From Isoetes taiwanensis (taxonomy: Eukaryota > Streptophyta > Lycopodiopsida > Isoetales > Isoetaceae): a DNA stretch of 64,000 bases. Positions within the stretch are counted from its first letter, which is position 1; every line of letters starts with the position of its first letter. Shown in pieces: positions 1-63,165 of this stretch. Location of the stretch: assembly GCA_021234155.1 (NCBI GenBank), contig JAJEKV010000037.1, positions 1-64,000 on the forward strand, read 5' to 3'. The notes beneath the pieces are model-generated. The model was not told the DNA's origin. It did not search any database and saw nothing but the letters and a program-made list of their open reading frames with translations. The position numbers and the translations under genes are program-made.

Positions 1-481
1 AATCTCAAGATAGTGTTGGAGTGTTCTTGAGTCATGCTCTACGTAATTCGCAGGTTCGACATTCCTTCCACCAGCCACTTTTAGGATGCCCCTTGTCCTA
101 TCTTAAAGCCATATATTTCGACGTAGGGCGCAATTCCAAAAGTATTTCATTGTCACAATTGCTTAGAATCTTCGATCGTGTCGATGTAGTATAGTGGTGA
201 GTATTCCCCCACCACACGGGTGACCCGGTTCGATCCCCCAAGATCGTAGCGCACTTTGGCCTAACTTGTCCAAAATAATGCATATATTCAAAATCGAGAT
301 CTTATATGCAAAATGAACTAAAAGATTCCTATTTAAGAGACGGTAGAGAAAAGAAGTTAGTATCGATTACACCGGATCTCGACGGTGTCGCCTAGTTCAT
401 CAAAACTATTTCAAGGACCTAGCTTTTAAGATATAGATAGCTTTCTAACCCAACCGGCTTTGATCTCAAGCTCCATAAACC
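1..481 (+). repeat. Unit 0, partial (left window edge), B locus only
   Basis: This is the 3' part of a unit. It aligns to the stretch between loci A and B and then B. B lies at 180-251 with core CCCACCACACGGG and a damaged 3' end. Bases 1-130 carry many more insertions and changes than the same stretch in any later unit. The left-block marker TATATGCAAAATG is present. Confidence 0.93.
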
Positions 482-1706
482 ATGGCAACGCAATTGTCGA
501 AGACAAAGATCCATTCGCATCAAAAGGCTCTTAGAAAAAGCAATGCCTTTCTTTGGAACCCTATTGCATAGTTACGCAAAGCGGTCGCCTTTTGAGCCCT
601 TGTTATGCTTCCATCCATTTCTCACACATGCGGATGGAGTACGGCAATTGCCGTCTTTGCAACTAGATGCCCCCGACGGTTCCAACGGAGCAAAAATCAC
701 CTCCATCGGATCGGGCGGATGCAGAGATATGCCAAACCGGGTTAAGCTTCTAGTTATGGATGTCTCCGTCTTTAAATTTGTTTCTTTTTAGCGCCTTTTA
801 AGCAAGTCATATTTGAGTGCTTACCGAGGTTCCTTTTCATTGCCTTGCTTTTTGCCTCCCTCTTAATTTGCCTTCACTTAGGTCCCCTGGGCTAATTCAC
901 CAAAAGTTCATATTTCATAATTCGCCATCAAGGGATGCCTCCTTGTCATATTCAAAGCTATATTTTGACGAAACCATATACTTCAATAATATTCTCTTGT
1001 CACAATTGTTTTAAGTTTTCATCATGTCGATGTAGTATAGTGGTGAGTATTCCCGCACTGTCACGCTGGTGACCCGAAGTTCGATCCCCAAGATCGGCGT
1101 GTGATTTTTGTTCTATCTCGCTTAGTGCATATCTTTCCAAAAGTGTAGCACATGAATATGACTCCCACCCCTTAAAAGCTGTGTGTTATGACTCCTACCC
1201 CCTTCAAAGTTGTGTTAGAGTTTCTATAATGCCAATCTCGATAGTGTTGAGTGTTCTTGGTCATGCCTACAATTCGTTCGATTCCACCACCGCACGAGGA
1301 TGTGTCTCCTTGTCCTATTCAAAGCCATATTTCGACGAGGCTGCAATTCCAAAGTATTTCATTGTCACAATTGCGGTTAGAATCTAAGATCGTGTCGATG
1401 TAGTATAGTGGTGAGTATTCCCACCGCCACGCTGGTGACCCGGTTCGATCCCCTAAGATCGGGCGCAATTTTTGGCCTAACTTGTCCAAAATAATGCATA
1501 TATTCAAAATCGAGATCTTATATGCAAAATGAACTAAAAGATTCCTATTTAAGAGACGGTGACGAGAGAAAAGAAGTTAGTATCAGATTACACCGGGGAT
1601 CTGACGGTGTCAGCTAGTTCATCAAAACTATTTCAAGGACCTAGCTTTTAAGATATAGATAGCTTCTAACCCAACCGGGCTTTGGATCTCAAGCTCCGGG
1701 TAAACC
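482..1706 (+). repeat. Unit 1 (1,225 bp)
   Basis: A is at 1026-1099, core CGCACTGTCACGCTGG, T arm CCGAAGTTCG. B is at 1394-1465, core CACCGCCACGCTGG. Left-block markers CTCTTAG, TATATGC and CTTCTAAC are present. The usual ATCTTCGATCG before B reads ATCTAAGATCG here. Confidence 0.96.
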
Positions 1707-2943
1707 ATGGCAACGCAATTGTCGAAGACAGCATCCATTCAGATCAAAAGGCTCTTAGAAAAAGCAATGCCTTTCTTTGAACCCTATTGCATAGTTACGG
1801 TGTAAAAGCGGGTCGCCTTTGAGCCCTTGTTATGCTTCCATCCATTTCTCACACATGCGGATGGAGTACGCAATTGCCGATGGGATTCGCAACTAGATGC
1901 CCCGACGGTTCCAACGGAGCAAAAATCACCTCCATCGGATCGGGCGATGCAGAGATATGCCAAACCGGTTAAGCTTCTAGTTATGGATGTCTCCGTGTCT
2001 TTAAATTTGTTTCTTTTTTAGCGCCACTTTTTAAGCAAATATTTTGAGTGCTTACCGGAGGTTCCTTTCATTGCCTTGCTTTTTGCCTCCCTCTTAATTT
2101 GCCTTCACTTAGGTCCCCGGGGCTAATTCACCAAAAGTTCATATTTCATAATTCGGCCATCAAGGGATGCCTCCTTGTCATATTCAAAGCTATATTTTGA
2201 CGAAATGATACTTCAATAATATTCTCTTGTCACAATTGTTTTAAGTTTTCATCATGTCGATGTAGTATAGTGGTGAGTATTCCCGCCACACGCTGGTGAC
2301 CCGAAGTTCGATCCCCCTGATCGGGCGATTTTTGTTCTATCTCGCCTAGTGCATATCTTTCCAAAGTGTAGCACATGAATATGATGCTCCCACCCCTTAA
2401 AAGTCGTGGTGTTATGACTCCTACCCCTTCAAAGTTGTGTTAGAGTTTCTATAATGCCAATCTCGCGATAGTGTTGAGTGTTCTTGGTCATGCCGGGCGA
2501 CCCGCAGGTTCGATTCCACCACCGCACGAGGATGTGTCTCCTTGTCCTATTCAAAGCCATATTTCGACGAGGCTGCAATTCCAAAGTATTTCATTGTCAC
2601 AATTAATGTTAGAATCTTCGATCGTGGTCGATGTAGTATAGTGGTGAGTATTCCCACCACCACGCTGGTGACCCGGTTCGATCCCCAAGATCGGGCGCAA
2701 TTTTTGGCCTAACTTGTCCAAAATAATGCATATATTCAAAATCGAGATCTTATATGCAAAATGAACTAAAAGATTCCTATTTAAGAGACGGTGACGAGAG
2801 AAAAGAAGTTAGTATCAGATTACACCGGATCCGACTTTGCCCCCTGTCACCTAGTTCATCAAAACTATTTCAAGGACCTAGCTTTTAAGATATAGATAGC
2901 TTCTAACCCAACCGGGCTTTGGATCTCAAGCTCCGGGTAAACC
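1707..2943 (+). repeat. Unit 2 (1,237 bp)
   Basis: A is at 2256-2327, core CGCCACACGCTGG. B is at 2627-2697, core CACCACCACGCTGG. Left-block markers CTCTTAG, GTTAAGC, TATATGC and CTTCTAAC are present. The end of the unit has the odd form GATCCGACTTTGCCCCCTG in place of the usual GACGGTGTCAG. Confidence 0.97.
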
Positions 2944-6668: not shown

Positions 6669-7903
6669 ATGGCAACGCAATTGTCGAAGACAAAGATCCA
6701 TTCAGATCAAAAGGCTCTTAGAAAAAGCAATGCCTTTCTTTGGAACCCTATTGCATAGTTACGGTGTAAAAAGCGGTCGCCTTTTGAGCCCTTTGTTATG
6801 CTTCCATCCATTTCTCACACATGATGGAGTACGGCAATTGCCGATGGGATTCGCAACTAGATGCCCGACGGGTTCCAACGGAGCAAAAATCACCTCCATC
6901 GACCGGGCGGATGCAGAGATATGCCAAACCGGTTAAGCTTCTAGTTATGGATGTCTCCGTGTCTTTAAATTTGTTTCTTTTTAGCGCCTTTTAAGCAAAT
7001 ATTTTGAGTGCTTACCGGAGGTTCCTTTCATTGCCTTGCTTTTTGCCTCCCTCTTTAATTTGCCTTCACTTAGGTCCCTCGGGCTAATTCACCAAAAGTT
7101 CATATTTCATAATTGGCCATCAAGGGATGCCTCCTTGTCATATTCAAAGCTATATTTTGACGAAATGATACTTCAATAATAATATTCTCTTGTCACAATT
7201 GCTCTTAAGTTTTCATCATGTCGATGTAGTATAGTGGTGAGTATTCCCGCCTGTCACGCGGGTGACCCGAGTTCGATCCCCGGCATCGGCGTGATTTTTG
7301 TTCTATCTCGCCTAGTGCATATCTTTCCAAAGTGTAGCACATGAATATGACTGACTCCCACCCCTTAAAAGCTGTGTGTTATGACTCCTACCCCCTTCAA
7401 AGTTGTGTTAGAGTTTCTATAATGCCAATCTCGCATAGTGTTGAGTGTTCTTGGTCATGCCTACGAATTCGTGTTCGATTCCACCACCGCACGAGGATGT
7501 GTCTCCTTGTCCTATTCAAAGCCATATTTCGACGAGGCTGCAATTCCAAAGTATTTCATTGTCACAATTGCGGTTAGAATCTTCGATCGTGTCGATGTAG
7601 TATAGTGGTGAGTATTCCCACCACACGCTGGTGACCCGGTTCGATCCCCCTAAGATCGGGCGCAATTTTTGGCCTAACTTGTCCAAAATAATGCATATAT
7701 TCAAAATCGAGATCTTATATGCAAAATGAACTAAAAGATTCCTATTTAAGAGACAGTGACGAGAGAAAAGAAGTTAGTATCAGATTACACCGGAGATCTG
7801 ACGGTGTCAGCTAGTTCATCAAAACTATTTCAAGGACCTAGCTTTTAAGATATAGATAGCTTCTAACCCAACCGGGCTTTGGATCTCAAGCTCCGGGTAA
7901 ACC
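6669..7903 (+). repeat. Unit 6 (1,235 bp)
   Basis: A is intact at 7220-7291. B is at 7591-7662, core CACCACACGCTGG. The half before A is degenerate-state (AGACAAAGATCC) while A itself is perfect, so the two states can change within one unit. The extra AAT before A is shared with unit 5. Confidence 0.97.
7220..7291 (+). tRNA. tRNA-Asp(GTC), locus A of unit 6
   Basis: Seventy-two nt, anticodon GTC in loop CTGTCAC, anticodon stem CCCGC/GCGGG, box A TAGTATAGTGGT, acceptor GTCGATG/CATCGGC, discriminator G, and TTTTT four bases downstream of the tRNA. The T stem reads CCGAG against CCCGG, leaving an A-C mismatch at 52-62, which also alters the first base of box B. Decoding of Asp codons GAC/GAU is inferred from the anticodon and the match to plant tRNA-Asp. 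The mismatch may lower function. Confidence 0.85.
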
Positions 7904-8831: not shown

Positions 8832-8903
8832 GTCGATGTAGTATAGTGGTGAGTATTCCCGCCTGTCACGCGGGTGACCCGGGTTCGATCCCCGGCATCG
8901 GCG
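8832..8903 (+). tRNA. tRNA-Asp(GTC), locus B of unit 7, intact
   Basis: All four stems pair fully: acceptor GTCGATG/CATCGGC, D stem GTAT/GTAT (with the D-arm non-Watson-Crick pairs usual for this tRNA), anticodon stem CCCGC/GCGGG, T stem CCGGG/CCCGG. Loop CTGTCAC has anticodon GTC. Box B is GGTTCGATCCC. No intron and no encoded CCA, as expected for a nuclear gene. A Pol III terminator T5 follows after CAA. Confidence 0.95.
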
Positions 8904-9027
8904 CAATTTTTGGCCTAACTTGTCCAAAATAATGCATATATTCAAAATCGAGATCTTATATGCAAAATGAACTAAAAGATTCCTATTTAAGAGACGGTGA
9001 CGAGAGAAAAGAAGTTAGTATCAGATT

Positions 9028-9048
9028 ACACCGGGGATCTGACGGTGT
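9028..9048. repeat. Short inverted repeat near each unit end, unit 7 example
   Basis: ACACCG and CGGTGT form a perfect 6-bp inverted repeat with 9 bases between; the overlapping CTGAC-GGT-GTCAG gives a second small stem. It recurs at the matching place in clean-state units. No function can be assigned. Confidence 0.5.
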
Positions 9049-9144
9049 CAGCTAGTTCATCAAAACTATTTCAAGGACCTAGCTTTTAAGATATAGATAG
9101 CTTCTAACCCAACCGGGCTTTGGATCTCAAGCTCCGGGTAAACC

Positions 9145-10316
9145 ATGGCAACGCAATTGTCGAAGACAGCATCCATTCAGATCAAAAGGCTCTAGAAAAA
9201 GCAATGCCTTTCTTTGGAACCCTATTGCATAGTTACGGTGTAAAAAGCGGTCGTCTTTGAGCCCTGACGGTTCCAACGGAGCAAAAATCACCTCCATCGG
9301 ACCGGCGGATGCAGAGATATGCCAAACTGAAGTTAAGCTTCTAGTTATGGATGTCTCCGTGTCTTTAAATTTGTTTTTTTTAGGCAAAATTATATTTTGC
9401 TTTAAGCAGGTCCCTATTTTGAGTGCTTACCGAGGTTCCTTTCATTGCCTTGCTTTTTGCCTCCCTCTTAATTTGCCTTCACTTAGGTCCCCTGGGCTAA
9501 TTCACCAAAAGTTCATATTTCATAATTCGCCATCAAGGGATGCCTCCTTGTCATATTCAAAGCTATATTTTGACGAAATGATACTTCAATAATATTCTCT
9601 TGTCACAATTGCTCTTAAGTTTTCATCATGTCGATGTAGTATAGTGGTGAGTATTCCCGTCATTACGCTGGTGACCCGAAGTTCGATCCCCGCATCGGGC
9701 GTGATTTTTGTTCTATCTCGCCTAGTGCATATCTTTCCAAAGTGTAGCACATGAATATATGACTCCCACCCCTTAAAAGTCGTGTGTTATGACTCCTACC
9801 CCTTCAAAGTTGTGTTAGAGTTTCTATAATGCCAATCTCGCATAGTGTTGAGTGTTCTTGGTCATGCCTACAATCTGTTCGATTCCACCACCACCGCAAC
9901 GAGGATGTGTCTCCTTGTCCTATTCAAAGCCATATTTCGACGAGGCTGCAATTCCAAAGTATTTCATTGTCACAATTATGTTAGAATCTTCGATCGTGGT
10001 CGATGTAGTATAGTGGTGAGTATTCCCGCCACCGTCACGCGGGGTGACCCGGTTCGATCCCCAAGATCGGGCGCAATTTTTTTGGCCTAACTTGTCCAAA
10101 ATAATGCATATATTCAAAATCGAGATCTTATATTCAAAATGAACTAAAAGATTCCTATTTAAGAGACGGTGACGAGAGAAAAGAAGTTAGTATCAGATTA
10201 CACCGGGGATCTGACGGTGTCAGCTAGTTCATCAAAACTATTTCAAGGACCTAGCTTTTAAGATATAGATAGCTTCCAACCCAACCGGGCTTTGGATCTC
10301 AAGCTCCGGGTAAACC
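9145..10316 (+). repeat. Unit 8 (1,172 bp), shortest unit, internal deletion
   Basis: A is at 9630-9701, core CGTCATTACGCTGG. B is at 9999-10073, core CGCCACCGTCACGCGGGG. Seventy-eight bp present in unit 7 are missing at 9261-9265. The T-rich spot holds an unusual insert near 9384-9400. From here on the unit reads CTCTAG, TATATTC and CTTCCAAC. Confidence 0.97.
9261..9265. other. Deletion junction in unit 8 (78 bp lost)
   Basis: GAGCCCT joins directly to GACGG. In unit 7 these are separated by 78 bp that end with GACGCCCT. The shared GCCCT at the joint is a 5-bp microhomology. Confidence 0.85.
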
Positions 10317-17831: not shown

Positions 17832-19097
17832 ATGGCAACGCAATTGTCGAAGACAGCATCCATTCAGATCAAAAGGCTCTAGAAAAAGCAATGCCTTTCT
17901 TTGGAACCCTATTGCATAGTTACGGTGTACAAAGCGGTCGTCTTTGAGCCCTTGTTATGCTTCCATCCATTTCTCACACATGCGGATGGAGTACGGCAAT
18001 TGCCGCTGGATTCGCAAACTAGATGCCCCGACGGTTCCAACGGAGCAAAAATCACCTCCATCGGACCGGGCGGATGCAGATATGCCAAACCGAAGTCAAG
18101 CTTCTAGTTATGGATGTCTCCGCGTTTTAAATTTGTTTCTTTTTTAGCGCACCTTTTAGGCAACCATATTTGAGTGCTTACCGGAGGTCCCTTTCATTGC
18201 CTTGAGTGCTTACCGGAGGTTCCTTTCATTGCCTTGCTTTTTGCCTCCCTCTTCATTTGCCTTCACTTAGGTCCATGGGCTAATTCACCAAAAGTTCATA
18301 TTTCATAATTCGCCATCAAGGGATGCCTCCTTGTCATATTCAAAGCTATATTTTGACGAAATGATACTTCAATAATATTCTCTTGTCACAAATGCTCTTA
18401 AGTTTTCATCATGTCGATGTAGTATAGTGGTGAGTATTCCCACCACCACGCTGGTGACCCGGTTCGATCCCCCAAGATCGGGCGATTTTTTGTTCTATCT
18501 CGCCTAGTGCATATCTTTCCAAAGTGTAGCACATGAATATGACTCCCACCCCTTAAAAGTCGTGGTGTTATGACTCCTACCCCTTCAAAGTTGTGTTAGA
18601 GTTTCTATAATGCCAATCTCGCATAGTGTTGAGTGTTCTTGGTCATGCCGGCCAATCTGTTCGTTCGATTCCACCAAATAAGACGAGGATGTGTCTCCCT
18701 TGTCCTATTCAAAGCCATATTTCGACGAGGCTGCAATTCCAAAGTATTTCATTGTCACAATTATGCATTAGAATCTTCGATCGTGGTCGATGTAGTATAG
18801 TGGTGAGTATTCCCACCCTGCCACGCTGGTGACCCGGTTCGATCCCCCCCGGATCGGGCGCAATTTTTGGCCTAACTTGTCCAAAATAATGCATATATTC
18901 AAAATCGAGATCTTATATTCAAAATGAACTAAAAGATTCCTATTTAAGAGACGGTGACGAGAGAGAAAAGAAGTTAGTATCGATTACACCGGATCCGACG
19001 GTGTCACCTAGTTCATCAAAACTATTTCAAGGACCTAGCTTTTAAGATATAGATAGCTTCCAACCCAACCGGCTTTGATCTCAAGCTCCGGTAAACC
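17832..19097 (+). repeat. Unit 15 (1,266 bp)
   Basis: A is at 18413-18484, core CACCACCACGCTGG. B is at 18786-18860, core CACCCTGCCACGCTGG with seven C's in the T arm. Central-block markers. ACCACCGCACGAGG before B reads ACCAAATAAGACGAGG here. Confidence 0.97.
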
Positions 19098-20359
19098 ATG
19101 GCAACGCAATTGTCGGGCACAAAGATCCACTCGATCAAAAGGCTCTAGAAAAAAAGCAATGCCTTTCTTTGGAACCCTATTGCATAGTTACGTGTACAAA
19201 GCGGTCGCCTTTGAGCCCTTTGTTATGCTTCCATCCATTTCTCACACATGCGGATGGAGTACGGCAATTGCCGCTGGGATTCGGCAACTAGATGCCCTGA
19301 CGGTTCCAACGGAGCAAAAATCACCTCCATCGGACCGGCGGATGCAGAGATATGCCAAACTGAAGTCAAGCTTCTAGTTATGGATGTCTCCGTGTTTTAA
19401 ATTTGTTTCTTTTTTAGCGCACCTTTTAGGCAAATATATATTTGAGTGCTTACCGAGGTCCCTTTCATTGCCTTGAGTGCTTACCGGAGGTTCCTTTCAT
19501 TGCCTTGCTTTTTGCCTCCCTCTTCATTTGCCTTCACTTAGGTCCATGGGCTAATTCACCAAAAGTTCATATTTCATAATTCGTCATCAAGGGATGCCTC
19601 CTTGTCATATTCAAAGCTATATTTTGACGAAATGATACTTCAATAATATTCTCTTGTCACAAATGCTCTTAAGTTTTCATCATGTCGATGTAGTATAGTG
19701 GTGAGTATTCCCACCACACGCTGGTGACCCGGTTCGATCCCCGCATCGGGCGTGATTTTTGTTCTATCTCGCCTAGTGCATATCTTTCCAAAGTGTAGCA
19801 CATGAATATGACTCCCACCCCTTAAAGTCGTGGTGTTATGACTCCTACCCCTTCAAAGTTGTGTTAGAGTTTCTATAATGCCAATCTCGCATAGTGTTGA
19901 GTGTTCTTGGTCATGCCTACGAATTCGTTCGACGATTCCACCACAAGACGAGGATGTGTCTCCTTGTCCTATTCAAAGCCATATTTCGACGAGGCTGCAA
20001 TTCCAAAGTATTTCATTGTCACAATTATGCATTAGAATCTTCGATCGTGGTCGATGTAGTATAGTGGTGAGTATTCCCACCACACGCTGGTGACCCGGTT
20101 CGATCCCCTAAGATCGGGCGCAATTTTTGGCCTAACTTGTCCAAAATAATGCATATATTCAAAATCGAGATCTTATATTCAAAATGAACTAAAAGATTCC
20201 TATTTAAGAGACGGTGACGAGAGAGAAAAGAAGTTAGTATCGATTACACCGGGATCCGACGGTTGTCGCCTAGTTCATCAAAACTATTTCAAGGACCTAG
20301 CTTTTAAGATATAGATAGCTTCCAACCCAACCGGCTTTGATCTCAAGCTCCCGTAAACC
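19098..20359 (+). repeat. Unit 16 (1,262 bp)
   Basis: A is at 19684-19752 and B at 20050-20120, both with core CACCACACGCTGG. First unit of the sub-block with CCACTC where others read CCATTC. The region near 19114 reads GTCGGGCACAAAG instead of GTCGAAGACAAAG. Confidence 0.97.
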
Positions 20360-21610
20360 ATGGCAACGCAATTGTCGAAGACAAAGATCCACTCAGATCA
20401 AAAGGCTCTAGAAAAAGCAATGCCTTTTCTTTGGAACCCTATTGCATAGTTACGTGTACAAAGCGGTCGCCTTTGAGCCCTTGTTATGCTTCCATCCATT
20501 TCTCACACATGCGGATGGAGTACGGCAATTGCCGCCGGATTCGCAAACTAGATGCCCCGACGGTTCCAACGGAGCAAAAATCACCTCCATCGGACCGGGG
20601 ATGCAGAGATATGCCAAACCGAAGTCAAGCTTCTAGTTATGGATGTCTCCGTGCCTTTAAATTTGTTTTTTTTTAGCGACCTTTTAGGCAATATTTTGAG
20701 TGCTTACCGAGGTCCCTTTCATTGCCTTGAGTGCTTACCGGAGGTTCCTTTCATTGCCTTGCTTTTTGCCTCCCTCTTCATTTGCCTTCACTTAGGTCCA
20801 TGGGCTAATTCACCAAAAGTTCATATTTCATAATTGGCCATCAAGGGATGCCTCCTTGTCATATTCAAAGCTATATTTTGACGAAATGATACTTCAATAA
20901 TATTCTCTTGTCACAAATGCTCTTAAGTTTTCATCATGTCGATGTAGTATAGTGGTGAGTATTCCCACCACACGCTGGTGACCCGGTTCGATCCCCCAAG
21001 ATCGGCGCGATTTTTGTTCTATCTCGCCTAGTGCATATCTTTCCAAAGTGTAGCACATGAATATGACTCCCACCCCTTAAAAGTCGTGGTGTTATGACTC
21101 CTACCCCTTCAAAGTTGTGTTAGAGTTTCTATAATGCCAATCTCGCATAGTGTTGAGTGTTCTTGGTCATGCCTACAATCCCGTTCGATTCCACCAACCG
21201 ACGAGGATGTGTCTCCTTGTCCTATTCAAAGCCATATTTCGACGAGGCTGCAATTCCAAAGTATTTCATTGTCACAATTGCGATTAGAATCTTCGATCGT
21301 GGTCGATGTAGTATAGTGGTGAGTATTCCCACCACACGCTGGTGACCGGTTCGATCCCCAAGATCGGGCGCAATTTTTGGCCTAACTTGTCCAAAATAAT
21401 GCATATATTCAAAATCGAGATCTTATATTCAAAATGAACTAAAAGATTCCTATTTAAGAGACGGACGACGAGAGAAAAGAAGTTAGTATCGATTACACCG
21501 GGGATCTCGACGGTGTCGCCTAGTTCATCAAAACTATTTCAAGGACCTAGCTTTTAAGATATAGATAGCTTCCAACCCAACCGGCTTTGATCTCAAGCTC
21601 CGGTAAAACC
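20360..21610 (+). repeat. Unit 17 (1,251 bp)
   Basis: A is at 20938-21007 and B at 21302-21370, both with core CACCACACGCTGG; B has lost one C of the T arm. Central-block markers plus CCACTCAG. Confidence 0.97.
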
Positions 21611-22875
21611 ATGGCAACGCAATTGTCGAAGACAAAGATCCACTCAGATCAAAAGGCTCTAGAAAAAGCAATGCCTTTTCTTTTGAACCCTATTGCATAG
21701 TTACGGTGTACAAAGCGGTCGCCTTTGAGCCCTTTGTTATGCTTCCATCCATTTCTCACACATGCGGATGGAGTACGGCAATTGCCGCTGGATTCGCAAC
21801 TAGATGCCCCGACGGTTCCAACGGAGCAAAAATCACCTCCATCGGACGGGCGGATGCAGAGATATGCCAAACCAAAGTCAAGCTTCTAGTTATGGATGTC
21901 TCCGTGCTTTTAAATTTGTTTTTTTTTTAGCGACCTTTTAGGCAAATATTTTGAGTGCTTACCGGAGGTCCCTTTCATTGCCTTGAGTGCTTACCGAGGT
22001 TCCTTTCATTGCCTTGCTTTTTGCCTCCCTCTTCATTTGCCTTCACTTAGGTCCATGGGCTAATTCACCAAAAGTTCATATTTCATAATTCGCCATCAAG
22101 GGATGCCTCCTTGTCATATTCAAAGCTATATTTTGACGAAATGATACTTCAATAATATTCTCTTGTCACAAATGCTCTTAAGTTTTCATCATGTCGATGT
22201 AGTATAGTGGTGAGTATTCCCGCCACACGCTGGTGACCCGGTTCGATCCCCGCATCGGGCGATTTTTTTGTTCTATCTCGCCTAGTGCATATCTTTCCAA
22301 AGTGTAGCACATGAATATGACTCCCACCCCTTAAAAGTCGTGTGTTTATGACTCCTACCCCTTCAAAGTTGTGTTAGAGTTTCTATAATGCCAATCTCGC
22401 ATAGTGTTGAGTGTTCTTGGTCATGCCGGGCGAATCTGTTTCGATTCCCACCACCGCACGAGGATGTGTCTCCTTGTCCTATTCAAAGCCATATTTCGAC
22501 GAGGCTGCAATTCCAAAGTATTTCATTGTCACAATTATGATTAGAATCTTCGATCGTGGTCGATGTAGTATAGTGGTGAGTATTCCCGCACCGTGTCACG
22601 CTGGTGACCCGGTTCGATCCCCTAAGATCGGGCGCAATTTTTGGCCTAACTTGTCCAAAATAATGCATATATTCAAAATCGAGATCTTATATTCAAAATG
22701 AACTAAAAGATTCCTATTTAAGAGACGGTGACGAGAAAAGAAGTTAGTATCGATTACACCGGGATCCGACGGTGTCGCCTAGTTCATCAAAACTATTTCA
22801 AGGACCTAGCTTTTAAGATATAGATAGCTTCCAACCCAACCAACTTTGGCTTTGATCTCAAAGCTCCGGTAAACC
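21611..22875 (+). repeat. Unit 18 (1,265 bp)
   Basis: A is at 22193-22261, core CGCCACACGCTGG. B is at 22559-22634, core CGCACCGTGTCACGCTGG. Central-block markers plus CCACTCAG. Near 22842 AACCAACTTTGGC stands in place of AACCGGC. Confidence 0.97.
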
Positions 22876-24128
22876 ATGGCAACGCAATTGTCGAAGACAG
22901 CATCCACTCAGATCAAAAGGCTCTAGAAAAAGCAATGCCTTTCTTTGGAACCCTATTGCATAGTTACGGTGTACAAAGCGGTCGTCTTTGAGCCCTTGTT
23001 ATGCTTCCATCCATTTCTCACACATGCGGATGGAGTACGGCAATTGCCGCTGGGATTCGGCAACTAGATGCCCTGACGGTTCCAACGGAGCAAAAATCAC
23101 CTCCATCGGACCGGCGGATGCAGAGATATGCCAAACTGAAGTCAAGCTTCTAGTTATGGATGTCTCCGCCTTTTAAATTTGTTTCTTTTTTTTACCTTTT
23201 AGGCAGTCATATTTGAGTGCTTACCGAGGTCCCTTTCATTGCCTTGAGTGCTTACCGAGGTTCCTTTCATTGCCTTGCTTTTTGCCTCCCTCTTCATTTG
23301 CCTTCACTTAGGTCCATGGGCTAATTCACCAAAAGTTCATATTTCATAATTCGCCATCATCAAGGGATGCCTCCTTGTCATATTCAAAGCTATATTTTGA
23401 CGAAATGATACTTCAATAATATTCTCTTGTCACAAATGCTCTTAAGTTTTCATCATGTCGATGTAGTATAGTGGTGAGTATTCCCGCCACACGCTGGTGA
23501 CCCGGTTCGATCCCCCAAGATCGGGCGTGATTTTTTTCTATCTCGCCTAGTGCATATCTTTCCAAAGTGTAGCACATGAATATGACTCCCACCCCTTAAA
23601 AGCTGTGTGTTATGACTCCTACCCCCTTCAAAGTTGTGTTAGAGTTTCTATAATGCCAATCTCGCATAGTGTTGAGTGTTCTTGGTCATGCCGGGCGACT
23701 GTTTCGATTCCACCACCGCAATACGAGGATGTGTCTCCTTGTCCTATTCAAAGCCATATTTCGACGAGGCTGCAATTCCAAAGTATTTCATTGTCACAAT
23801 TGCGATTAGAATCTTCGATCGTGGTCGATGTAGTATAGTGGTGAGTATTCCCCCGCCACGCGGTGACCCGGTTCGATCCCCGCAAGATCGGGCGCAATTT
23901 TTGGCCTAACTTGTCCAAAATAATGCATATATTCAAAATCGAGATCTTATATTCAAAATGAACTAAAAGATTCCTATTTAAGAGACGGTGACGAGAGAAA
24001 AGAAGTTAGTATCAGATTACACCGGATCTCGACGTCAGCTAGTTCATCAAAACTATTTCAAGGACCTAGCTTTTAAGATATAGATAGCTTCCAACCCAAC
24101 CGGCTTTGATCTCAAGCTCCGTAAAACC
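22876..24128 (+). repeat. Unit 19 (1,253 bp)
   Basis: A is at 23457-23527, core CGCCACACGCTGG. B is at 23824-23894, core CCCGCCACGCGG. The first 280 bases are clean-state. CATCAT is duplicated near 23355. CCACTCAG is present. Confidence 0.97.
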
Positions 24129-25380
24129 ATGGCAACGCAATTGTCGAAGACAAAGATCCACTCAGATCAAAAGGCTCTAGAAAAAGCAATGCCTTTCTTT
24201 GGAACCCTATTGCATAGTTACGGTGTACAAAGCGGTCGCCTTTGAGCCCTTTGTTATGCTTCCATCCATTTCTCACACATGCGGATGGAGTACGGCAATT
24301 GCCGCTGGATTCGCAACTAGATGCCCCGACGGTTCCAACGGAGCAAAAATCACCTCCATCGGACCGGGCGGATGCAGAGATATGCCAAACCAAGTCAAGC
24401 TTCTAGTTATGGATGTCTCCGCGCCTTTAAATTTGTTTCTTTTTTAGCGCACCTTTTAGGCAAATATATTTGAGTGCTTACCGGAGGTCCCTTTCATTGC
24501 CTTGAGTGCTTACCGGAGGTTCCTTTCATTGCCTTGCTTTTTGCCTCCCTCTTCATTTGCCTTCACTTAGGTCCATGGGCTAATTCACCAAAAGTTCATA
24601 TTTCATAATTCGGCCATCAAGGGATGCCTCCTTGTCATATTCAAAGCTATATTTTGACGAGCCGATACTTCAATAATATTCTCTTGTCACAAATGCTCTT
24701 AAGTTTTCATCATGTCGATGTAGTATAGTGGTGAGTATTCCCACCACCACGCTGGTGACCCGGTTCGATCCCCAAGATCGGGCGTGATTTTTGTTCTATC
24801 TCGCCTAGTGCATATCTTTCCAAAGTGTAGCACATGAATATGACTCCCACCCCTTAAAAGTCGTGGTGTTATGACTCCTACCCCTTCAAAGTTGTGTTAG
24901 AGTTTCTATAATGCCAATCTCGCATAGTGTTGAGTGTTCTTGGTCATGCCGGGCGACATTGTTCGATTCCACCACCGCACGAGGATGTGTCTCCTTGTCC
25001 TATTCAAAGCCATATTTCGACGAGGCTGCAATTCCAAAGTATTTCATTGTCACAATTGCGATTAGAATCTTCGATCGTGTCGATGTAGTATAGTGGTGAG
25101 TATTCCCGCACACGCTGGTGACCCGGTTCGATCCCCAAGATCGGGCAATTTTTGGCCTAACTTGTCCAAAATAATGCATATATTCAAAATCGAGATCTTA
25201 TATTCAAAATGAACTAAAAGATTCCTATTTAAGAGACGGTGACGAGAGAAAAGAAGTTAGTATCAGATTACACCGGATCCGACGGTCAGCCTAGTTCATC
25301 AAAACTATTTCAAGGACCTAGCTTTTAAGATATAGATAGCTTCCAACCCAACCGGCTTTGATCTCAAGCTCCGGTAAACC
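24129..25380 (+). repeat. Unit 20 (1,252 bp)
   Basis: A is at 24714-24784, core CACCACCACGCTGG. B is at 25079-25146, core CGCACACGCTGG with a shortened 3' end (GGGCAATTTTT). Full central-block markers plus CCACTCAG and GAGCCGATAC. Confidence 0.97.
24472..24535 (+). repeat. 32-bp tandem duplication, unit 20 example
   Basis: Two copies of a 32-bp stretch that begins GAGTGCTTACCGGAGG, differing at one base (GGTCCC, then GGTTCC). Standard in units 11-26 and 28 with small changes, variant in 9, 27, 30 and 51, absent elsewhere. It explains the greater length of central-block units. Confidence 0.9.
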
Positions 25381-26642
25381 ATGGCAACGCAATTGTCGAA
25401 GACAAAGATCCACTCAGATCAAAAGGCTCTAGAAAAAGCAATGCCTTTCTTTGGAACCCTATTGCATAGTTACGGTGTACAAAGCGGTCGTCTTTTGAGC
25501 CCTTGTTATGCTTCCATCCATTTCTCACACATGCGGATGGAGTACGGCAATTGCCGCTGGATTCGCAACTAGATGCCCCGACGGTTCCAACGGAGCAAAA
25601 ATCACCTCCATCGGACCGGGCGGATGCAGAGATATGCCAAACCAAGTCAAGCTTCTAGTTATGGATGTCTCCGCGTGCTTTAAATTTGTTTCTTTTTTTA
25701 GCGCACCTTTTAGGCAAATATTTGAGTGCTTACCGAGGTCCCTTTCATTGCCTTGAGTGCTTACCGAGGTTCCTTTCATTGCCTTGCTTTTTGCCTCCTC
25801 TTCATTTGCCTTCACTTAGGTCCATGGGCTAATTCACCAAAAGTTCATATTTCATAATTCGGCCATCAAGGGATGCCTCCTTGTCATATTCAAAGCTATA
25901 TTTTGACGAAATGATACTTCAATAATATTCTCTTGTCACAAATGCTCTTAAGTTTTCATCATGTCGATGTAGTATAGTGGTGAGTATTCCCGTCATTCAC
26001 GCTGGTGACCCGGTTCGATCCCCGCATCGGGCGTGATTTTTGTTCTATCTCGCCTAGTGCATATCTTTCCAAAGTGTAGCACATGAATATGACTCCCACC
26101 CCTTAAAAGTCGTGGTGTTATGACTCCTACCCCTTCAAAGTTGTGTTAGAGTTTCTATAATGCCAATCTCGCATAGTGTTGAGTGTTCTTGGTCATGCCG
26201 GGCGAATTCGTGTTCGATTCCACCACCGCGACGGATGTGTCTCCTTGTCCTATTCAAAGCCATATTTCGACGAGGCTGCAATTCCAAAGTATTTCATTGT
26301 CACAATTATGATTAGAATCTTCGATCGTGGTCGATGTAGTATAGTAGTGAGTATTCCCGCCTGTCACGCGGGTGACCCGGGTTCGATCCCCGGCATCGGC
26401 GCAATTTTTGGCCTAACTTGTCCAAAATAATGCATATATTCAAAATCGAGATCTTATATTCAAAATGAACTAAAAGATTCCTATTTAAGAGACGGTGACG
26501 AGAGAAAAGAAGTTAGTATCAGATTACACCGGGGATCTGACGGTGTCAGCTAGTTCATCAAAACTATTTCAAGGACCTAGCTTTTAAGATATAGATAGCT
26601 TCCAACCCAACCGGGCTTTGGATCTCAAGCTCCGGGTAAACC
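25381..26642 (+). repeat. Unit 21 (1,262 bp)
   Basis: A is at 25963-26033, core CGTCATTCACGCTGG. B is full length at 26330-26401 with a D-loop change at 26346. Central-block markers plus CCACTCAG. Confidence 0.97.
26330..26401 (+). tRNA. tRNA-Asp(GTC), locus B of unit 21, D-loop variant
   Basis: Full-length and fully paired, but position 26346 is A where all other copies have G (ATAGTAGTGA for ATAGTGGTGA). This replaces G18, one of the two invariant D-loop guanines that contact the T loop, and it also breaks the last GG of box A. It is possibly impaired. If so it is a pseudogene inside an otherwise perfect copy. Confidence 0.8.
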
Positions 26643-27899
26643 ATGGCAACGCAATTGTCGAAGACAGCATCCACTCAGATCAAAAGGCTCTAGAAAAAGC
26701 AATGCCTTTCTTTGGAACCCTATTGCATAGTTACGGTGTACAAAGCGGTCGTCTTTGAGCCCTTGTTATGCTTCCATCCATTTCTCACACATGCGGATGG
26801 AGTACGGCAATTGCCGCTGGGATTCGGCAACTAGATGCCCTGACGGTTCCAACGGAGCAAAAATCACCTCCATCGGATCGGGCGGATGCAGAGATGCCAA
26901 AAACCAAGTCAAGCTTCTAGTTATGGATGTCTCCGCGTTTTAAATTTGTTTCTTTTTTTTAGCGCACCTTTTAGGCAAATATTTTGAGTGCTTACCGGAG
27001 GTCCCTTTCATTGCCTTGAGTGCTTACCGGAGGTTCCTTTCATTGCCTTGCTTTTTGCCTCCCTCTTCATTTGCCTTCACTTAGGTCCATGGGCTAATTC
27101 ACCAAAAGTTCATATTTCATAATTCGTCATCAAGGGATGCCTCCTTGTCATATTCAAAGCTATATTTTGACGAAATGATACTTCAATAATATTCTCTTGT
27201 CACAAATGCTCTTAAGTTTTCATCATGTCGATGTAGTATAGTGGTGAGTATTCCCCGCCACGCTGGGTGACCCGGTTCGATCCCCGCATCGGGCGATGAT
27301 TTTTGTTCTATCTCGCCTAGTGCATATCTTTCCAAAGTGTAGCACATGAATATGACTCCCACCCCTTAAAAGTCGGTGTTATGACTCCTACCCCTTCAAA
27401 GTTGTGTTAGAGTTTCTATAATGCCAATCTCGCATAGTGTTGAGTGTTCTTGGTCATGCCGGGCGAATCGTTCGATTCCACCACCGCACGAGGATGTGTC
27501 TCCTTGTCCTATTCAAAGCCATATTTCGACGAGGCTGCAATTCCAAAGTATTTCATTGTCACAATTGCGATTAGAATCTTCGATCGTGTCGATGTAGTAT
27601 AGTGGTGAGTATTCCCGCCTGTCACGCGGGTGACCCGGGTTCGATCCCCTAAGATCGGGCGCAATTTTTGCCTAACTTGTCCAAAATAATGCATATATTC
27701 AAAATCGAGATCTTATATTCAAAATGAACTAAAAGATTCCTATTTAAGAGACGGTGACGAGAGAAAAAGAAGTTAGTATCGATTACACCGGATCCGACGG
27801 TGTCGTCACCTAGTTCATCAAAACTATTTCAAGGACCTAGCTTTTAAGATATAGATAGCTTCCAACCCAACCGGCTTTGATCTCAAGCTCCGGTAAACC
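26643..27899 (+). repeat. Unit 22 (1,257 bp)
   Basis: A is at 27227-27295, core CCGCCACGCTGGG. B is at 27588-27661, nearly intact with only its 3' acceptor strand altered. Central-block markers plus CCACTCAG. Confidence 0.97.
27588..27661 (+). pseudogene. tRNA-Asp-like, locus B of unit 22, altered 3' end
   Basis: Positions 1-60 match the intact B gene. The T stem and acceptor 3' strand read CCCCTAAGATCGGGCG, two bases longer, which unpairs the T stem and shifts the acceptor. Confidence 0.7.
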
Positions 27900-29148
27900 A
27901 TGGCAACGCAATTGTCGAAGACAAAGATCCACTCAGATCAAAAGGCTCTAGAAAAAAGCAATGCCTTTTTTGAACCCTATTGCATAGTTACGGTACAAAG
28001 CGGTCGCCTTTTGAGCCCTTTGTTATGCTTCCATCCATTTCTCACACATGCGGATGGAGTACGGCAATTGCCGCTGGGATTCGCAACTAGATGCCCCGAC
28101 GGTTCCAACGGAGCAAAAATCACCTCCATCGGACCGGGCGGATGATGAGATATGCCAAACCGGTCAAGCTTCTAGTTATGGATGTCTCCGCCTTTAAATT
28201 TGTTTTTTTTTTAGCGACCTTTTAGGCAGTCATATTTGAGTGCTTACCGGAGGTCCCTTTCATTGCCTTGAGTGCTTACCGAGGTTCCTTTCATTGCCTT
28301 GCTTTTTGCCTCCCTTTCATTTGCCTTCACTTAGGTCCATGGGCTAATTCACCAAAAGTTCATATTTCATAATTCGCCATCAAGGGATGCCTCCTTGTCA
28401 TATTCAAAGCTATATTTTGACGAAATGATACTTCAATAATATTCTCTTGTCACAAATGCTCTTAAGTTTTCATCATGTCGATGTAGTATAGTGGTGAGTA
28501 TTCCCACCACACGCTGGTGACCCGGTTCGATCCCCAAATCGGGCGTGATTTTTGTTCTATCTCGCCTAGTGCATATCTTTCCAAAGTGTAGCACATGAAT
28601 ATGACTCCCACCCCTTAAAAGTCGTGGTGTTATGACTCCTACCCCTTCAAAGTTGTGTTTAGAGTTTCTATAATGCCAATCTCGCGATAGTGTTGAGTGT
28701 TCTTGGTCATGCCGGGCGACCCGTTCGATTCCACCAACGCACGAGGATGTGTCTCCTTGTCCTATTCAAAGCCATATTTCGACGAGGCTGCAATTCCAAA
28801 GTATTTCATTGTCACAATTATGATTAGAATCTTCGATCCGGTCGGTCGATGTAGTATAGTGGTGAGTATTCCCGCCCACACACGCTGGTGACCCGGTTCG
28901 ATCCCCTAGATCGGGCGCAATTTTTGGCCTAACTTGTCCAAAATAATGCATATATTCAAAATCGAGATCTTATATTCAAAATGAACTAAAAGATTCCTAT
29001 TTAAGAGACGACGAGAAAAGAAGTTAGTATCGATTACACCGGATCCGACGGTGTCAGCTAGTTCATCAAAACTATTTCAAGGACCTAGCTTTTAAGATAT
29101 AGATAGCTTCCAACCCAACCGGCTTTGATCTCAAGCTCCGGGTAAACC
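27900..29148 (+). repeat. Unit 23 (1,249 bp)
   Basis: A is at 28477-28545, core CACCACACGCTGG. B is at 28845-28917, core CGCCCACACACGCTGG, preceded by GATCCGGTCGGTCGATG in place of GATCGTGTCGATG. Central-block markers plus CCACTCAG. Confidence 0.97.
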
Positions 29149-29732
29149 ATGGCAACGCAATTGTCGAAGACAGCATCCACTCAGATCAAAAGGCTCTAGA
29201 AAAAGCAATGCCTTTCTTTGGAACCCTATTGCATAGTTACGGTGTACAAAGCGGTCGTCTTTGAGCCCTTGTTATGCTTCCATCCATTTCTCACACATGC
29301 GGATGGAGTACGGCAATTGCCGCTGGGATTCGGCAACTAGATGCCCTGACGGTTCCAACGGAGCAAAAATCACCTCCATCGGACCGGCGGATGCAGAGAT
29401 ATGCCAAACTGAAGTCAAGCTTCTAGTTATGGATGTCTCCGTGCCTTTAAATTTGTTTCTTTTTTAGCGACCTTTTAGGGCAAATATATTTGAGTGCTTA
29501 CCGGAGGTCCCTTTCATTGCCTTGAGTGCTTACCGGAGGTTCCTTTCATTGCCTTGCTTTTTGCCTCCCTCTTCATTTGCCTTCACTTAGGTCCATGGGC
29601 TAATTCACCAAAAGTTCATATTTCATAATTCGTCATCAAGGGATGCCTCCTTGTCATATTCAAAGCTATATTTTGACGAGCCGATACTTCAATAATATTC
29701 TCTTGTCACAAATGCTCTTAAGTTTTCATCAT

Positions 29733-29804
29733 GTCGATGTAGTATAGTGGTGAGTATTCCCGCCTGTCACGCGGGTGACCCGAGTTCGATCCCCGGCATC
29801 GGCG
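29733..29804 (+). tRNA. tRNA-Asp(GTC), locus A of unit 24
   Basis: Same as the unit 6 A copy, including T stem CCGAG/CCCGG with its A-C mismatch. It lies 366 bp upstream of an intact B copy, so this unit has both loci at full length. Confidence 0.86.
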
Positions 29805-29812
29805 TGATTTTT
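29805..29812 (+). terminator. Pol III terminator of locus A, unit 24 example
   Basis: TGATTTTT follows the A tRNA, a T5 run three bases after the discriminator. The same position holds T5 to T7 in the other A copies. Confidence 0.8.
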
Positions 29813-30098
29813 GTTCTATCTCGCCTAGTGCATATCTTTCCAAAGTGTAGCACATGAATATGACTCCCACCCCTTAAAAGCTGTGTGTTATGACTCCTAC
29901 CCCCTTCAAAGTTGTGTTAGAGTTTCTATAATGCCAATCTCGCATAGTGTTGAGTGTTCTTGGTCATGCCGGCGACCCGTGTTCGATTCCACCACCGCAC
30001 GAGGATGTGTCTCCTTGTCCTATTCAAAGCCATATTTCGACGAGGCTGCAATTCCAAAGTATTTCATTGTCACAATTGCGGTTAGAATCTTCGATCGT

Positions 30099-30170
30099 GT
30101 CGATGTAGTATAGTGGTGAGTATTCCCGCCTGTCACGCGGGTGACCCGGGTTCGATCCCCGGCATCGGCG
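30099..30170 (+). tRNA. tRNA-Asp(GTC), locus B of unit 24, intact
   Basis: Identical to the unit 7 B copy. The terminator T run is at 30174-30178. The 88 bp before it, back to CTCCTTGTCC, are the conserved B-type 5' flank. Confidence 0.95.
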
Positions 30171-30178
30171 CAATTTTT
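30171..30178 (+). terminator. Pol III terminator of locus B, unit 24 example
   Basis: CAATTTTT directly follows the discriminator base. A T run of four or more stops RNA polymerase III. A T5 or longer run is kept after nearly every A and B locus in the array, including degenerate ones; unit 0 B reads CACTTTGG instead. Confidence 0.8.
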
Positions 30179-30411
30179 GGCCTAACTTGTCCAAAATAAT
30201 GCATATATTCAAAATCGAGATCTTATATTCAAAATGAACTAAAAGATTCCTATTTAAGAGACGGTGACGAGAGAAAAGAAGTTAGTATCAGATTACACCG
30301 GGGATCTGACGGTGTCAGCTAGTTCATCAAAACTATTTCAAGGACCTAGCTTTTAAGATATAGATAGCTTCCAACCCAACCGGGCTTTGGATCTCAAGCT
30401 CCGGGTAAACC

Positions 30412-48691: not shown

Positions 48692-48765
48692 GTCGATGTA
48701 GTATAGTGGTGAGTATTCCCGCCTGTCACGCGGGTGACCCGTGTTCGATCCCCTAAGATCGGGCG
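48692..48765 (+). pseudogene. tRNA-Asp-like, locus B of unit 39
   Basis: Anticodon arm exact. The T arm reads CCGTGTTCG and the 3' end CCTAAGATCGGGCG. Confidence 0.7.
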
Positions 48766-59476: not shown

Positions 59477-59548
59477 GTCGATGTAGTATAGTGGTGAGTA
59501 TTCCCGCACTGTCACGCGGGTGACCCGGTTCGATCCCCGCATCGGGCG
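59477..59548 (+). pseudogene. tRNA-Asp-like, locus A of unit 48
   Basis: The core is CGCACTGTCACGCGGG: anticodon GTC and the 3' stem strand are kept, with one base inserted in the 5' strand. The T arm is CCGGTTCG and the 3' end CGCATCGGGCG. Confidence 0.65.
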
Positions 59549-59843
59549 TGATTTTTGTTCTATCTCGCCTAGTGCATATCTTTCCAAAGTGTAGCACATG
59601 AATATGACTCCCACCCCTTAAAAGTCGTGGTGTTATGACTCCTACCCCCTTCAAAGTTGTGTTAGAGTTTCTATAATGCCAATCTCGCATAGTGTTGAGT
59701 GTTCTTGGTCATGCCGGCGACCCGTGTTTGATTCCACCACCGCACGAGGATGTGTCTCCTTGTCCTATTCAAAGCCATATTTCGATGAGGCTGCAATTCC
59801 AAAGTATTTCATTGCCACAATTGCGGTTAGAATCTTCGATCGT

Positions 59844-59906
59844 GTATAGTGGTGAGTATTCCCGCCTGTCACGCGGGTGACCTGGGTTCGATCCCCGGCA
59901 TCGGCG
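59844..59906 (+). pseudogene. tRNA-Asp fragment, locus B of unit 48, 5' end deleted
   Basis: Starts at the D arm: GATCGTGT is joined to ATAGTGG, losing nine bases (CGATGTAGT) between two GT dinucleotides. The rest is full B type apart from C-to-T at 59883 in the T stem. The 5' acceptor strand and half of box A are gone. Confidence 0.9.
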
Positions 59907-60147
59907 CAATTTTTGGCCTAACTTGTCCAAAATAATGCATATATTCAAAATCGAGATCTTATATTCAAAATGAACTAAAAGATTCCTATTTAAGAGACGG
60001 TGACGAGAGAAAAGAAGTTAGTATCAGATTACACCGGGGATCTGACGGTGTCGGCTAGTTCATCAAAACTATTTCAAGGACCTAGCTTTTAAGATATAGA
60101 TAGCTTCCAACCCAACCGGGCTTTGGATCTCAAGCTCCGGGTAAACC

Positions 60148-61373
60148 ATGGCAACGCAATTGTCGAAGACAGCATCCATTCAGATCAAAAGGCTCTAGAA
60201 AAAGCAATGCCTTTCTTTGGAACCCTATTGCATAGTTACGGTGTAAAAAGCGGTCGTCTTTGAGCCCTTGTTATGCTTCCATCCATTTCTCACACATGCG
60301 GATGGAGTACGGCAATTGCCGCTGGGATTCGGCAACTAGATGCCCTGACGGTTCCAACGGAGCAAAAATCACCTCCATCGGACCGGCGGATGCAGAGATA
60401 TGCCAAACTGAAGTTAAGCTTCTAGTTATGGATGTCTCCGTGTCTTTAAATTTGTTTCTTTTTTTTAGCCACCTTTTAGGCAAATATATTTGAGTGCTTA
60501 CCGAGGTTCCTTTCATTGCCTTGCTTTTTGCCTCCCTCTTCATTTGCCTTCACTTAGGTCCATGGGCTAATTCACCAAAAGTTCATATTTCATAATTCGT
60601 CATCAAGGGATGCCTCCTTGTCATATTCAAAGCTATATTTTGACGAGCCGATACTTCAATAATATTCTCTTGTCACAATTGCTCTTAAGTTTTCATCATG
60701 TCGATGTAGTATAGTGGTGAGTATTCCCGTCTGTCACGCGGGTGACCCGAGTTCGATCCCCGGCATCGGGCGTGATTTTTGTTCTATCTCGCCTAGTGCA
60801 TATCTTTCCAAAGTGTAGCACATGAATATGACTCCCACCCCTTAAAAGTCGTGTGTTATGACTCCTACCCCTTCAAAGTTGTGTTAGAGTTTCTATAATG
60901 CCAATCTCGATAGTGTTGAGTGTTCTTGGTCATGCCGGGCGCACCCGTTTTCGATTCCACCACCGCGACGAGGATGTGTCTCCTTGTCCTATTCAAAGCC
61001 ATATTTCGACGAGGCTGCAATTCCAAAGTATTTCATTGTCACAATTGCGTTAGAATCTTCGATCGTGGTCGATGTAGTATAGTGGTGAGTATTCCCCGTC
61101 ACGCTGGTGACCCGGTTCGATCCCCTAAGATCGGGCGCAATTTTTGGCCTAACTTGTCCAAAATAATGCATATATTCAAAATCGAGATCTTATATTCAAA
61201 ATGAACTAAAAGATTCCTATTTAAGAGACGGTGACGAGAGAAAAGAAGTTAGTATCGATTACACCGGATCCGACGGTCGTCGCCTAGTTCATCAAAACTA
61301 TTTCAAGGACCTAGCTTTTAAGATATAGATAGCTTCCAACCCAACCGGCTTTGATCTCAAGCTCCCGTAAACC
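60148..61373 (+). repeat. Unit 49 (1,226 bp)
   Basis: A is nearly intact at 60700-60772. B is at 61068-61137, core CCGTCACGCTGG. TTCATTTG and CCATGGG (central-type) return, with GTAAAAG and GTTAAGC (right/left type) and no internal duplication. Confidence 0.97.
60700..60772 (+). pseudogene. tRNA-Asp-like, locus A of unit 49, nearly intact
   Basis: The core is CGTCTGTCACGCGGG: the anticodon is intact and one stem base is changed from C to T. An extra G stands near the 3' end (CATCGGGCG). Confidence 0.7.
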
Positions 61374-62611
61374 ATGGCAACGCAATTGTCGAAGACAAAG
61401 ATCCATTCAGATCAAAAGGCTCTAGAAAAAGCAATGCCTTTCTTTGGAACCCTATTGCATAGTTACGGTGTAAAAAGCGGTCGCCTTTTGAGCCCTTGTT
61501 ATGCTTCCATCCATTTCTCACATGCGGATGGAGTACGGCAATTGCCGCCGGGATTCGCAACTAGATGCCCCGACGGTTCCAACGGAGCAAAAATCACCTC
61601 CATCGGATCGGGATGATGAGATATGCCAAACCGGGTTAAGCTTCTAGTTATGGATGTCTCCGTGTCTTTAAATTTGTTTCTTTTTTTTAGCGCCTTTTAG
61701 GGCATTCTCATTTTTGAGCTTACCAGGTATTTTTGAGTGCTTACCGGAGGTTCCTTTCATTGCCTTGCTTTTTGCCTCCCTCTTCATTTGCCTTCACTTA
61801 GGTCCATGGGCTAATTCACCAAAAGTTCATATTTCATAATTGGCCATCAAGGGATGCCTCCTTGTCATATTCAAAGCTATATTTTGACGAGCCGATACTT
61901 CAATAATATTCTCTTGTCACAATTGTTCTTAAGTTTTCATCATGTCGATGTAGTATAGTGGTGAGTATTCCCCGCCACGCTGGTGACCCGGTTCGATCCC
62001 CGATCGGGCGATTTTTGTTCTATCTCGCCTAGTGCATATCTTTCCAAAGTGTAGCACATGAATATGACTCCCACCCCTTAAAAGTCGTGGTGTTATGACT
62101 CCTACCCCTTCAAAGTTGTGTTAGAGTTTCTATAATGCCAATCTCGCATAGTGTTGAGTGTTCTTGGTCATGCCGGCACCGCGTTTCGATTCCACCACCG
62201 CGACGAGGATGTGTCTCCTTGTCATATTCAAAGCCATATTTCGACGAGGCTGCAATTCCAAAGTATTTCATTGTCACAATTGCGTTAGAATCTTCGATCG
62301 TGGTCGATGTAGTATAGTGGTGAGTATTCCCCGTCCACGCTGGTGACCCGGTTCGATCCCCGCAGATCGGGCGCAATTTTTGGCCTAACTTGTCCAAAAT
62401 AATGCATATATTCAAAATCAAGATCTTATATTCAAAATGAACTAAAAGATTCCTATTTAAGAGACGGTGACGAGAGAAAAGAAGTTAGTATCAGATTACA
62501 CCGGGGATCTGACGGTGTCAGCTAGTTCATCAAAACTATTTCAAGGACCTAGCTTTTAAGATATAGATAGCTTCCAACCCAACCGGCTTTGATCTCAAGC
62601 TCCCGTAAACC
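61374..62611 (+). repeat. Unit 50 (1,238 bp), last complete unit
   Basis: A is at 61944-62010, core CCGCCACGCTGG. B is at 62303-62373, core CCGTCCACGCTGG. Near 62224 the B segment reads GTCATATTC, the A-segment base, where all other B segments have GTCCTATTC. The T-rich spot holds an insert (GGGCATTCTCATTTTTGAGC). Confidence 0.97.
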
Positions 62612-63165
62612 ATGGCAACGCAATTGTCGAAGACAAAGATCCATTCAGATCAAAAGGCTCTAGAAAAAGCAATGCCTTTTCTTTGGAACCCTATTGCATA
62701 GTTACGGTACAAAGCGGTCGCCTTTGAGCCCTTTGTTATGCTTCCATCCATTTCTCACACATGCAGATGGAGTACGGCAATTGCCGCTGGGATTTGGCAA
62801 CTAGATGCCCTGACGGTTCCAACGGAGCAAAAATCACCTCCATCGGACCGGCGGATGCAGAGATATGCCAAACTGAAGTCAAGCTTCTAGTTATGGATGT
62901 CTCCGCGCCTTTAAATTTGTTTCTTTTTTAGCACCTTTTTGAGTGCATATTTGAGGTCCCTTTCCCATTGCCTTGAGTGCTTACCGGGTTCCTTTCATTG
63001 CCTTGCTTTTTGCCTCCCTCTTCATTTGCCTTCACTTAGGTCCATGGGCTAATTCACCAAAAGTTCATATTTCATAATTCGGCCATCAAGGGATGCCTCC
63101 TTGTCATATTCAAAGCTATATTTTGACGAAATCGATACTTCAATAATATTCTCTTGTCACAAATG
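62612..63165 (+). repeat. Unit 51, partial (array right end)
   Basis: Homology stops after CTTGTCACAAATG at 63165, about 22 bases before locus A would start, so no tRNA is present. It has central-block markers: GTACAAAG, GTCAAGC, TTCATTTG, CCATGGG, CACAAATG and a degenerate internal duplication, although the units just before it are of the right type. Confidence 0.95.

Follow-up and report, generated by a model that had tools for sequence, protein, structure and literature searches.

The DNA analyzed here, a window of 64,000 nucleotides, repeats the same short contexts in two states, one uniform (clean) and one scrambled, and this raises the question of whether the scrambled state is a property of the genome or of its assembled sequence. 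We conclude that the two-state mosaic is almost certainly not a real biological feature, and that the tRNA-Asp array which carries it and the block alleles within that array are real. Probably the mosaic is a sequencing and assembly artefact caused by DNA methylation and overlying the true sequence, which the uniform form preserves; the first step of this explanation is that the scrambled form is not inherited sequence.

A tandem tRNA-Asp array in two states

A 26-base tRNA anchor matched 101 times in the window, 98 of these exactly, and the distance from one match to the next switches between about 367 and 875 bases, corresponding to two tRNA-Asp(GTC) genes in each unit of about 1.24 kb (Table 1). 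The appearance of the tRNAs, together with an earlier sequence-only reading of this DNA, suggests a nuclear plant origin, and the 101 tandem anchor copies would thus place the array among the clustered nuclear tRNA genes of plants. In 98 of the 101 copies the tRNA was intact over its initial 30 bases, the garbling affecting what follows them. An intact anticodon arm was found in 20 copies, and an intact 3' end in 16 of these and in 2 further copies. Rfam matched 20 copies, 15 at 55-61 bits and 5 at 34-46 bits, which are not entirely the same set as the 20 with an intact anticodon arm, and ARAGORN called 23 tRNAs. Such tools would therefore overlook, or label as degenerate, about four in five of the tRNA-Asp copies, and the scrambled copies could be mistaken for signs of pseudogene decay, conversion, or hypermutation. 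A search for relatives in IMG/VR with two exact patterns gave zero matches, which is uninformative for a plant sequence. The flank 3' of the array (63165-64000) is non-repeat, with a longest open frame of at most 61 aa.

Table 1. Positions of the array and of representative features in the window.
Feature	Position	Strand	Remarks
tRNA-Asp(GTC) tandem array	1..63165	+	50 full units, each 1173-1267 bp long, and some partial units; 101 tRNA copies
Two-state site, clean form AGACAGCATCC	1723..1740	+	21 clean and 29 scrambled units; scrambled AGACAAAGATCC in units starting near 276 and elsewhere
Scrambled tRNA-Asp example	2627..2697	+	intact through base 30; garbled in the anticodon arm and at the 3' end; without Rfam match
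Clean tRNA-Asp example, first tRNA of unit, CCCGAG allele	7220..7291	+	55.3 bits
Clean tRNA-Asp example, second tRNA of unit	8832..8903	+	60.9 bits
Units 16-24, contiguous C-allele block of CCA[T/C]T	18888..30197	+	six bases from flipping site; 3/9 units clean, 6/9 scrambled there

Tandem nuclear tRNA genes are also found in the Arabidopsis Ser/Tyr (SYY) cluster (PMC12308677) and in a survey of angiosperms (PMC11700998). The passages of the survey considered here give 28 tRNA-Ile in maize as the longest cluster, recall 27 Tyr-Tyr-Ser triplets in Arabidopsis, and name no Asp cluster; at 101 tRNA-Asp in 63 kb, the present array is larger than the clusters named there, although its two genes per 1.24 kb fall short of the three per kb by which the survey defines a cluster. 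A literature search for tRNA-Asp arrays revealed no such array in the titles and abstract openings among the matches listed.

The 50 full units were cut from the window and aligned, the alignment being approximate in indel-rich segments. Variation was confined to discrete segments. Compared to a clean reference of 1246 columns, 106 columns were hot, with a mean deviation of 54% of units, and 30 were block-allele columns; the remaining 1110 deviated in 1.3% of units (median 0), and 974 of the 1246 deviated in no more than 2%. The polarity of this reference was set by assumption, and the context test described below was therefore rerun with a plain majority reference.

The alternation between a uniform and a variable form that had been claimed for these units was readily confirmed, as all quoted forms are present in the window, each 10 to 29 times. 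Exact counts of clean versus scrambled forms were 20 versus 14 for CGCCTGTCACGCGGG and CACCACACGCTGG, 21 versus 29 for AGACAGCATCC and AGACAAAGATCC, 19 versus 19 for GGGATCTGACGG and GGATCCGACGG, and 10 versus 26 for AAAAGCTGTGTG and AAAAGTCGTGGTG. Likewise, the change of GCATC to AAGATC, said to occur at separate places, was found where each of the two tRNAs ends (3') and also in unrelated sequence, at the AGACAGCATCC site. The scrambled form had been described as variable, and up to 30 or more forms do occur at a single site, but at one site AAAGATCC stands in all 29 non-clean units. Other recurring rewrites were CTG to CCG or TCG, CAG to CG, and GGG to GG, and the two tRNAs of a unit shared garbled anticodon forms (ACCACACGCT 8 and 5 times, GCCACACGCT 3 and 3 times). 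The errors thus return at the same local contexts, and the marker and linkage results below show that they are not passed on with the copy.

Extent and origin of the clean patches

We picked 41 binary markers by eye from the variable segments, several of which share a segment. By the runs test along the array, 14 had the allele in contiguous units (z of -2.9 or below), and these block markers, one of them a duplication of about 32 bp, look like real alleles of an array growing by local duplication. The other 27, which include every example given in the sequence-only reading, had z values from -1.3 to +3.7 and showed no clustering between adjacent units across the 50 units. A column-wise recount separated the classes less sharply than the hand-picked markers, giving a main mode near 0 plus a tail, with 27 of 167 variable columns at z < -2.5 and 3 between -2.5 and -2. 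Within a unit, linkage among 25 markers (mean phi squared; linkage p-values uncorrected) was 0.42 at 0-30 bp, 0.15 at 60-100 bp, 0.08 at 200-300 bp, 0.04 at 300-400 bp, and about 0.02, near chance level, beyond 600 bp. Two-state sites are thus linked over about 300 bp within a unit, with no linkage between units.

The uniform form is the correct sequence, which is the third step of the preferred explanation, because it restores the tRNA and because nearby hot spots take fewer forms in clean units. After rarefaction, units clean at column 274 had 8 forms versus 18.9 in the rest at column 111, 3 versus 10.1 at column 350, and 6 versus 15.0 at column 505. Farther off the effect was mostly gone (16 versus 15.3 at column 957 and 8 versus 5.5 at column 1106), but column 995 had 12 versus 16.7. 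The hot spots flanking the clean second tRNA (columns 1327 and 111) showed no such halo, indicating that some clean patches are short. Among the 69 clean runs defined by 17 markers, the distance from first to last clean marker had a median of 33 bases, an upper quartile of 269, and a maximum of 1295, and the median between flanking non-clean markers was 313 bases.

A run of five cytosines lying about 21 bases from a CAG/CTG site was read as C5 in 10 of 11 clean units versus 2 of 39 other units. That this run is correct together with the CAG/CTG site, along with the linkage range, suggests local repair. In the fourth step, which addresses a point left aside in the sequence-only reading, namely why clean copies exist, clean patches of tens to hundreds of bases would accordingly be locally repaired consensus, perhaps because accurate short reads were drawn to nearly correct copies and left the others unrepaired. 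Standard short-read alignment is described as leaving repeat errors unfixed in bacterial genomes if another copy is error-free (PMC8812927); accurate reads would similarly go to the error-free copy here, although what was demonstrated in bacteria is for this array our extrapolation. Such a preference would lock the array into clean and scrambled patches. Taken on its own, local consensus repair, perhaps by short reads, has about an even chance of being the source of the clean patches. Several observations stand against it: clean and scrambled stretches are equally accurate away from hot spots, there is no halo at the second tRNA, and of 15 homopolymer runs 3, including the change of C5 to C4, differ between clean and scrambled units at p < 0.01, as against 12 that do not. 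An apparently greater accuracy of clean patches everywhere (4 of 7264 versus 104 of 25089 rare-substitution cells) was gone once the margin of 3 or more bases around each variable column was left out of the count. Short-read repair also does not predict the alternation of the marker at column 452.

That marker, CGGC/CGC, tends to alternate from each unit to the next (lag-1 phi -0.53 over 50 units, uncorrected p 1e-4).

An unlikely alternative is that the same long-read error gave rise to the patches inside the long-read consensus itself, through independent windows or the prevailing read strand, without short-read repair. It draws on marker 452, which is compatible with several aliased periods (348.5 or 272.25 in 94% of units, near 484 in 90%), and on a joint periodogram with a maximum of 77.6, slightly higher than the 76.8 that marks the 95% point in shuffles (largest shuffle 87.0). 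The breakpoints, however, gave no sign of a constant grid beyond that in shuffles (best G 27.4 versus a shuffle mean of 26.6 and a largest shuffle of 32.4), a coherent scan gave 30.2 versus a 95% point of 35.2, and a strand preference predicts one fixed scrambled form rather than the 30 or more observed at some sites. One marker was periodic, but the breakpoint scan was no better than shuffles and the joint periodogram was marginal, and we did not adopt a fixed 500-base consensus grid.

Sequence context of the hot columns

CHG is the symmetric methylation context typical of plants. The affected places had been described as rich in CG and CAG/CTG, and the latter was clearly favored. In the clean reference CAG/CTG was the hottest of the 32 strand-symmetric trinucleotide classes, with 10 hot sites among only 13, two of which are the same tRNA context (circular-shift null 2.9, reached by 4 of 1245 shifts); the 3 cold ones include AGGCTGCAA and ATTCAGATC. 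CCG/CGG was hot at 28 of 42 sites (null 9.3; 2 of 1245 shifts). Plain CG proved too broad a description, with 13 of 27 lone CG sites hot (null 6.7; 13 of 1245 shifts) and 14 cold, for example TTTCGACGAGG and ATCTCGCATAG. Six trinucleotides matching CAG in base composition were hot at 30 of 106 sites (null 23.5; 84 of 1245 shifts), and CC/GG without CG was colder than chance (5 of 46 versus a null of 11.5). Logistic coefficients were 2.5 (1.4 to 3.6) for CAG/CTG, 1.3 (0.5 to 1.9) for CG, 0.71 (-0.10 to 1.64) for CCG/CGG, and 0.5 (-0.1 to 1.2) for local GC. The CAG/CTG effect therefore persists after allowing for CG and local GC, and CCG/CGG has no clear effect beyond CG. Among block-allele columns, CAG/CTG was not enriched (1 of 13) and CCG/CGG was enriched weakly (7 of 42, 80 of 1245 shifts; with the majority reference 7 of 40, 44 of 1228 shifts). 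The enrichment of hot columns in CHG contexts, as expected for consensus error at methylated sites, was robust to the majority reference, with which CAG/CTG was again the hottest class, at 7 of 9 sites, and CCG/CGG was hot at 27 of 40. AT-rich parts, previously called nearly invariant, were indeed cooler but not empty, with 3.8-4.2% of columns hot below 40% local GC versus 48% above 70%.

In the second step of the preferred explanation, garbling falls at true CHG sites, as observed, and its most likely cause is that native DNA with dense CG and CHG methylation was called by a long-read basecaller untrained on such DNA. The array DNA would then be methylated and the reads of nanopore type, as judged from the sequence. 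Untrained base modifications are reported to cause systematic nanopore consensus errors in bacteria that are removed by the use of amplified DNA (PMC10687267). The errors described here are likewise systematic and would have a similar source, but those findings concern bacterial genomes, whereas we deal with a plant-like tandem array, CHG contexts, and assembled sequence alone. The Arabidopsis SYY cluster is predominantly CG and CHG methylated, with methylation doubted as its silencer (PMC12308677); the present array differs in its gene, copy number, and spacing, and its methylation is predicted. A literature search on plant CHG basecalling errors returned no matches.

Less probable still is systematic long-read miscalling without methylation, in which G+C-rich stretches would have current profiles resembling other sequences. 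Recurring rewriting fits such miscalling, as does the concentration of hot columns above 70% local GC, and nanopore miscalls at telomeres have been attributed to similar current profiles (PMC9414165). There, too, a repeat is rewritten into a recurring wrong sequence that is overlooked in ordinary assembly reading, but the telomeric repeats are of six bases and their errors strand-specific, whereas here the units are 1.24 kb long and the association is with CAG/CTG. High local GC alone marks nearly half of such columns as hot, and this, the lack of a clear CCG/CGG effect beyond CG, and the small number of CAG/CTG sites, with 3 of the 13 cold, count against the methylation step. On the other hand, the excess at CAG/CTG over trinucleotides of the same composition, together with the cold CC/GG without CG, is predicted by CHG methylation and not by GC content alone. 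If methylation is the cause, the garbled versus cold CAG/CTG and CCG/CGG sites might, tentatively, be read as a rough map of CHG methylation obtained from the assembly alone. That same joint reading points to a heavily CHG-methylated tRNA-Asp cluster whose methylation in the plant the assembly may have fossilized.

Real alleles beneath the scrambled sites

Real block alleles made it possible to see whether neighboring sequence is carried along when a two-state site flips. The flip between AGCATCC and AAAGATCC sits six bases from CCATT/CCACT, and the C allele of the latter runs without a gap across units 16-24 irrespective of the state of the flipping site (Table 1). At column 535, units 11 and 13-30 end in C and all remaining units in T, irrespective of the scrambled body. 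At column 461, clean units read CG in 4 of 4 cases among units 3-9, TG in 6 of 6 among units 11-29, and CG in 5 of 7 among units 31-49, whereas non-clean units read TG in 30 of 33 cases wherever located. The CG/TG allele is thus visible in the 17 clean units alone, which indicates that the other state is misread.

Mutation and gene conversion are excluded as the main cause because linkage is confined to the unit, adjacent alleles are undisturbed, and one allele is seen in clean copies alone. Real inherited variation, with decayed tRNA copies and patches restored by conversion between units, is very improbable despite the existence of real block alleles and a linkage of about 300 bp, the range expected of conversion tracts, since a flip leaves block alleles six bases away in place, two-state markers are unclustered between neighbors, and the tRNA is nearly always intact over its initial 30 bases while the rest is garbled. 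To produce this pattern, conversion tracts would have to stay below 10 bases in length while still linking sites separated by 300 bases. The earlier preference for consensus error over independent mutation is thus upheld by the absence of neighbor clustering, the linkage range, and the undisturbed block alleles.

The tRNA genes themselves gave a similar picture. In a comparison that grouped the first-tRNA copy at 23454 among the second tRNAs, most clean second tRNAs had CCCGGG versus CCCGG in scrambled copies. Clean copies of the first tRNA had CCCGAG in 6 of 8 cases and CCCGGG in 2 of 8, and scrambled copies had CCCGAAG in some unit blocks and CCCGG in others. Scrambled copies therefore retain real alleles, though distorted, and the blocks suggest that CCCGAAG corresponds to CCCGAG. 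Unit 24 does not fit this, being clean with the A allele although the surrounding block is of the other type.

Block runs, linkage range, undisturbed adjacent alleles, and alleles seen in the clean state alone together separate the alleles of an array from consensus error, with one assembly and no need of reads, and the same tests could serve other tandem arrays in long-read plant assemblies.

The duplication of about 32 bp (TTGAGTGCTTACCGGAGGTCCCTTTCATTGCC) is present between about 10600 and 37100 in most units of one long block and is apparently a real allele. The shortest unit (8930-10102, 1173 bp) lacks 87 of the reference columns; the array is otherwise regular.
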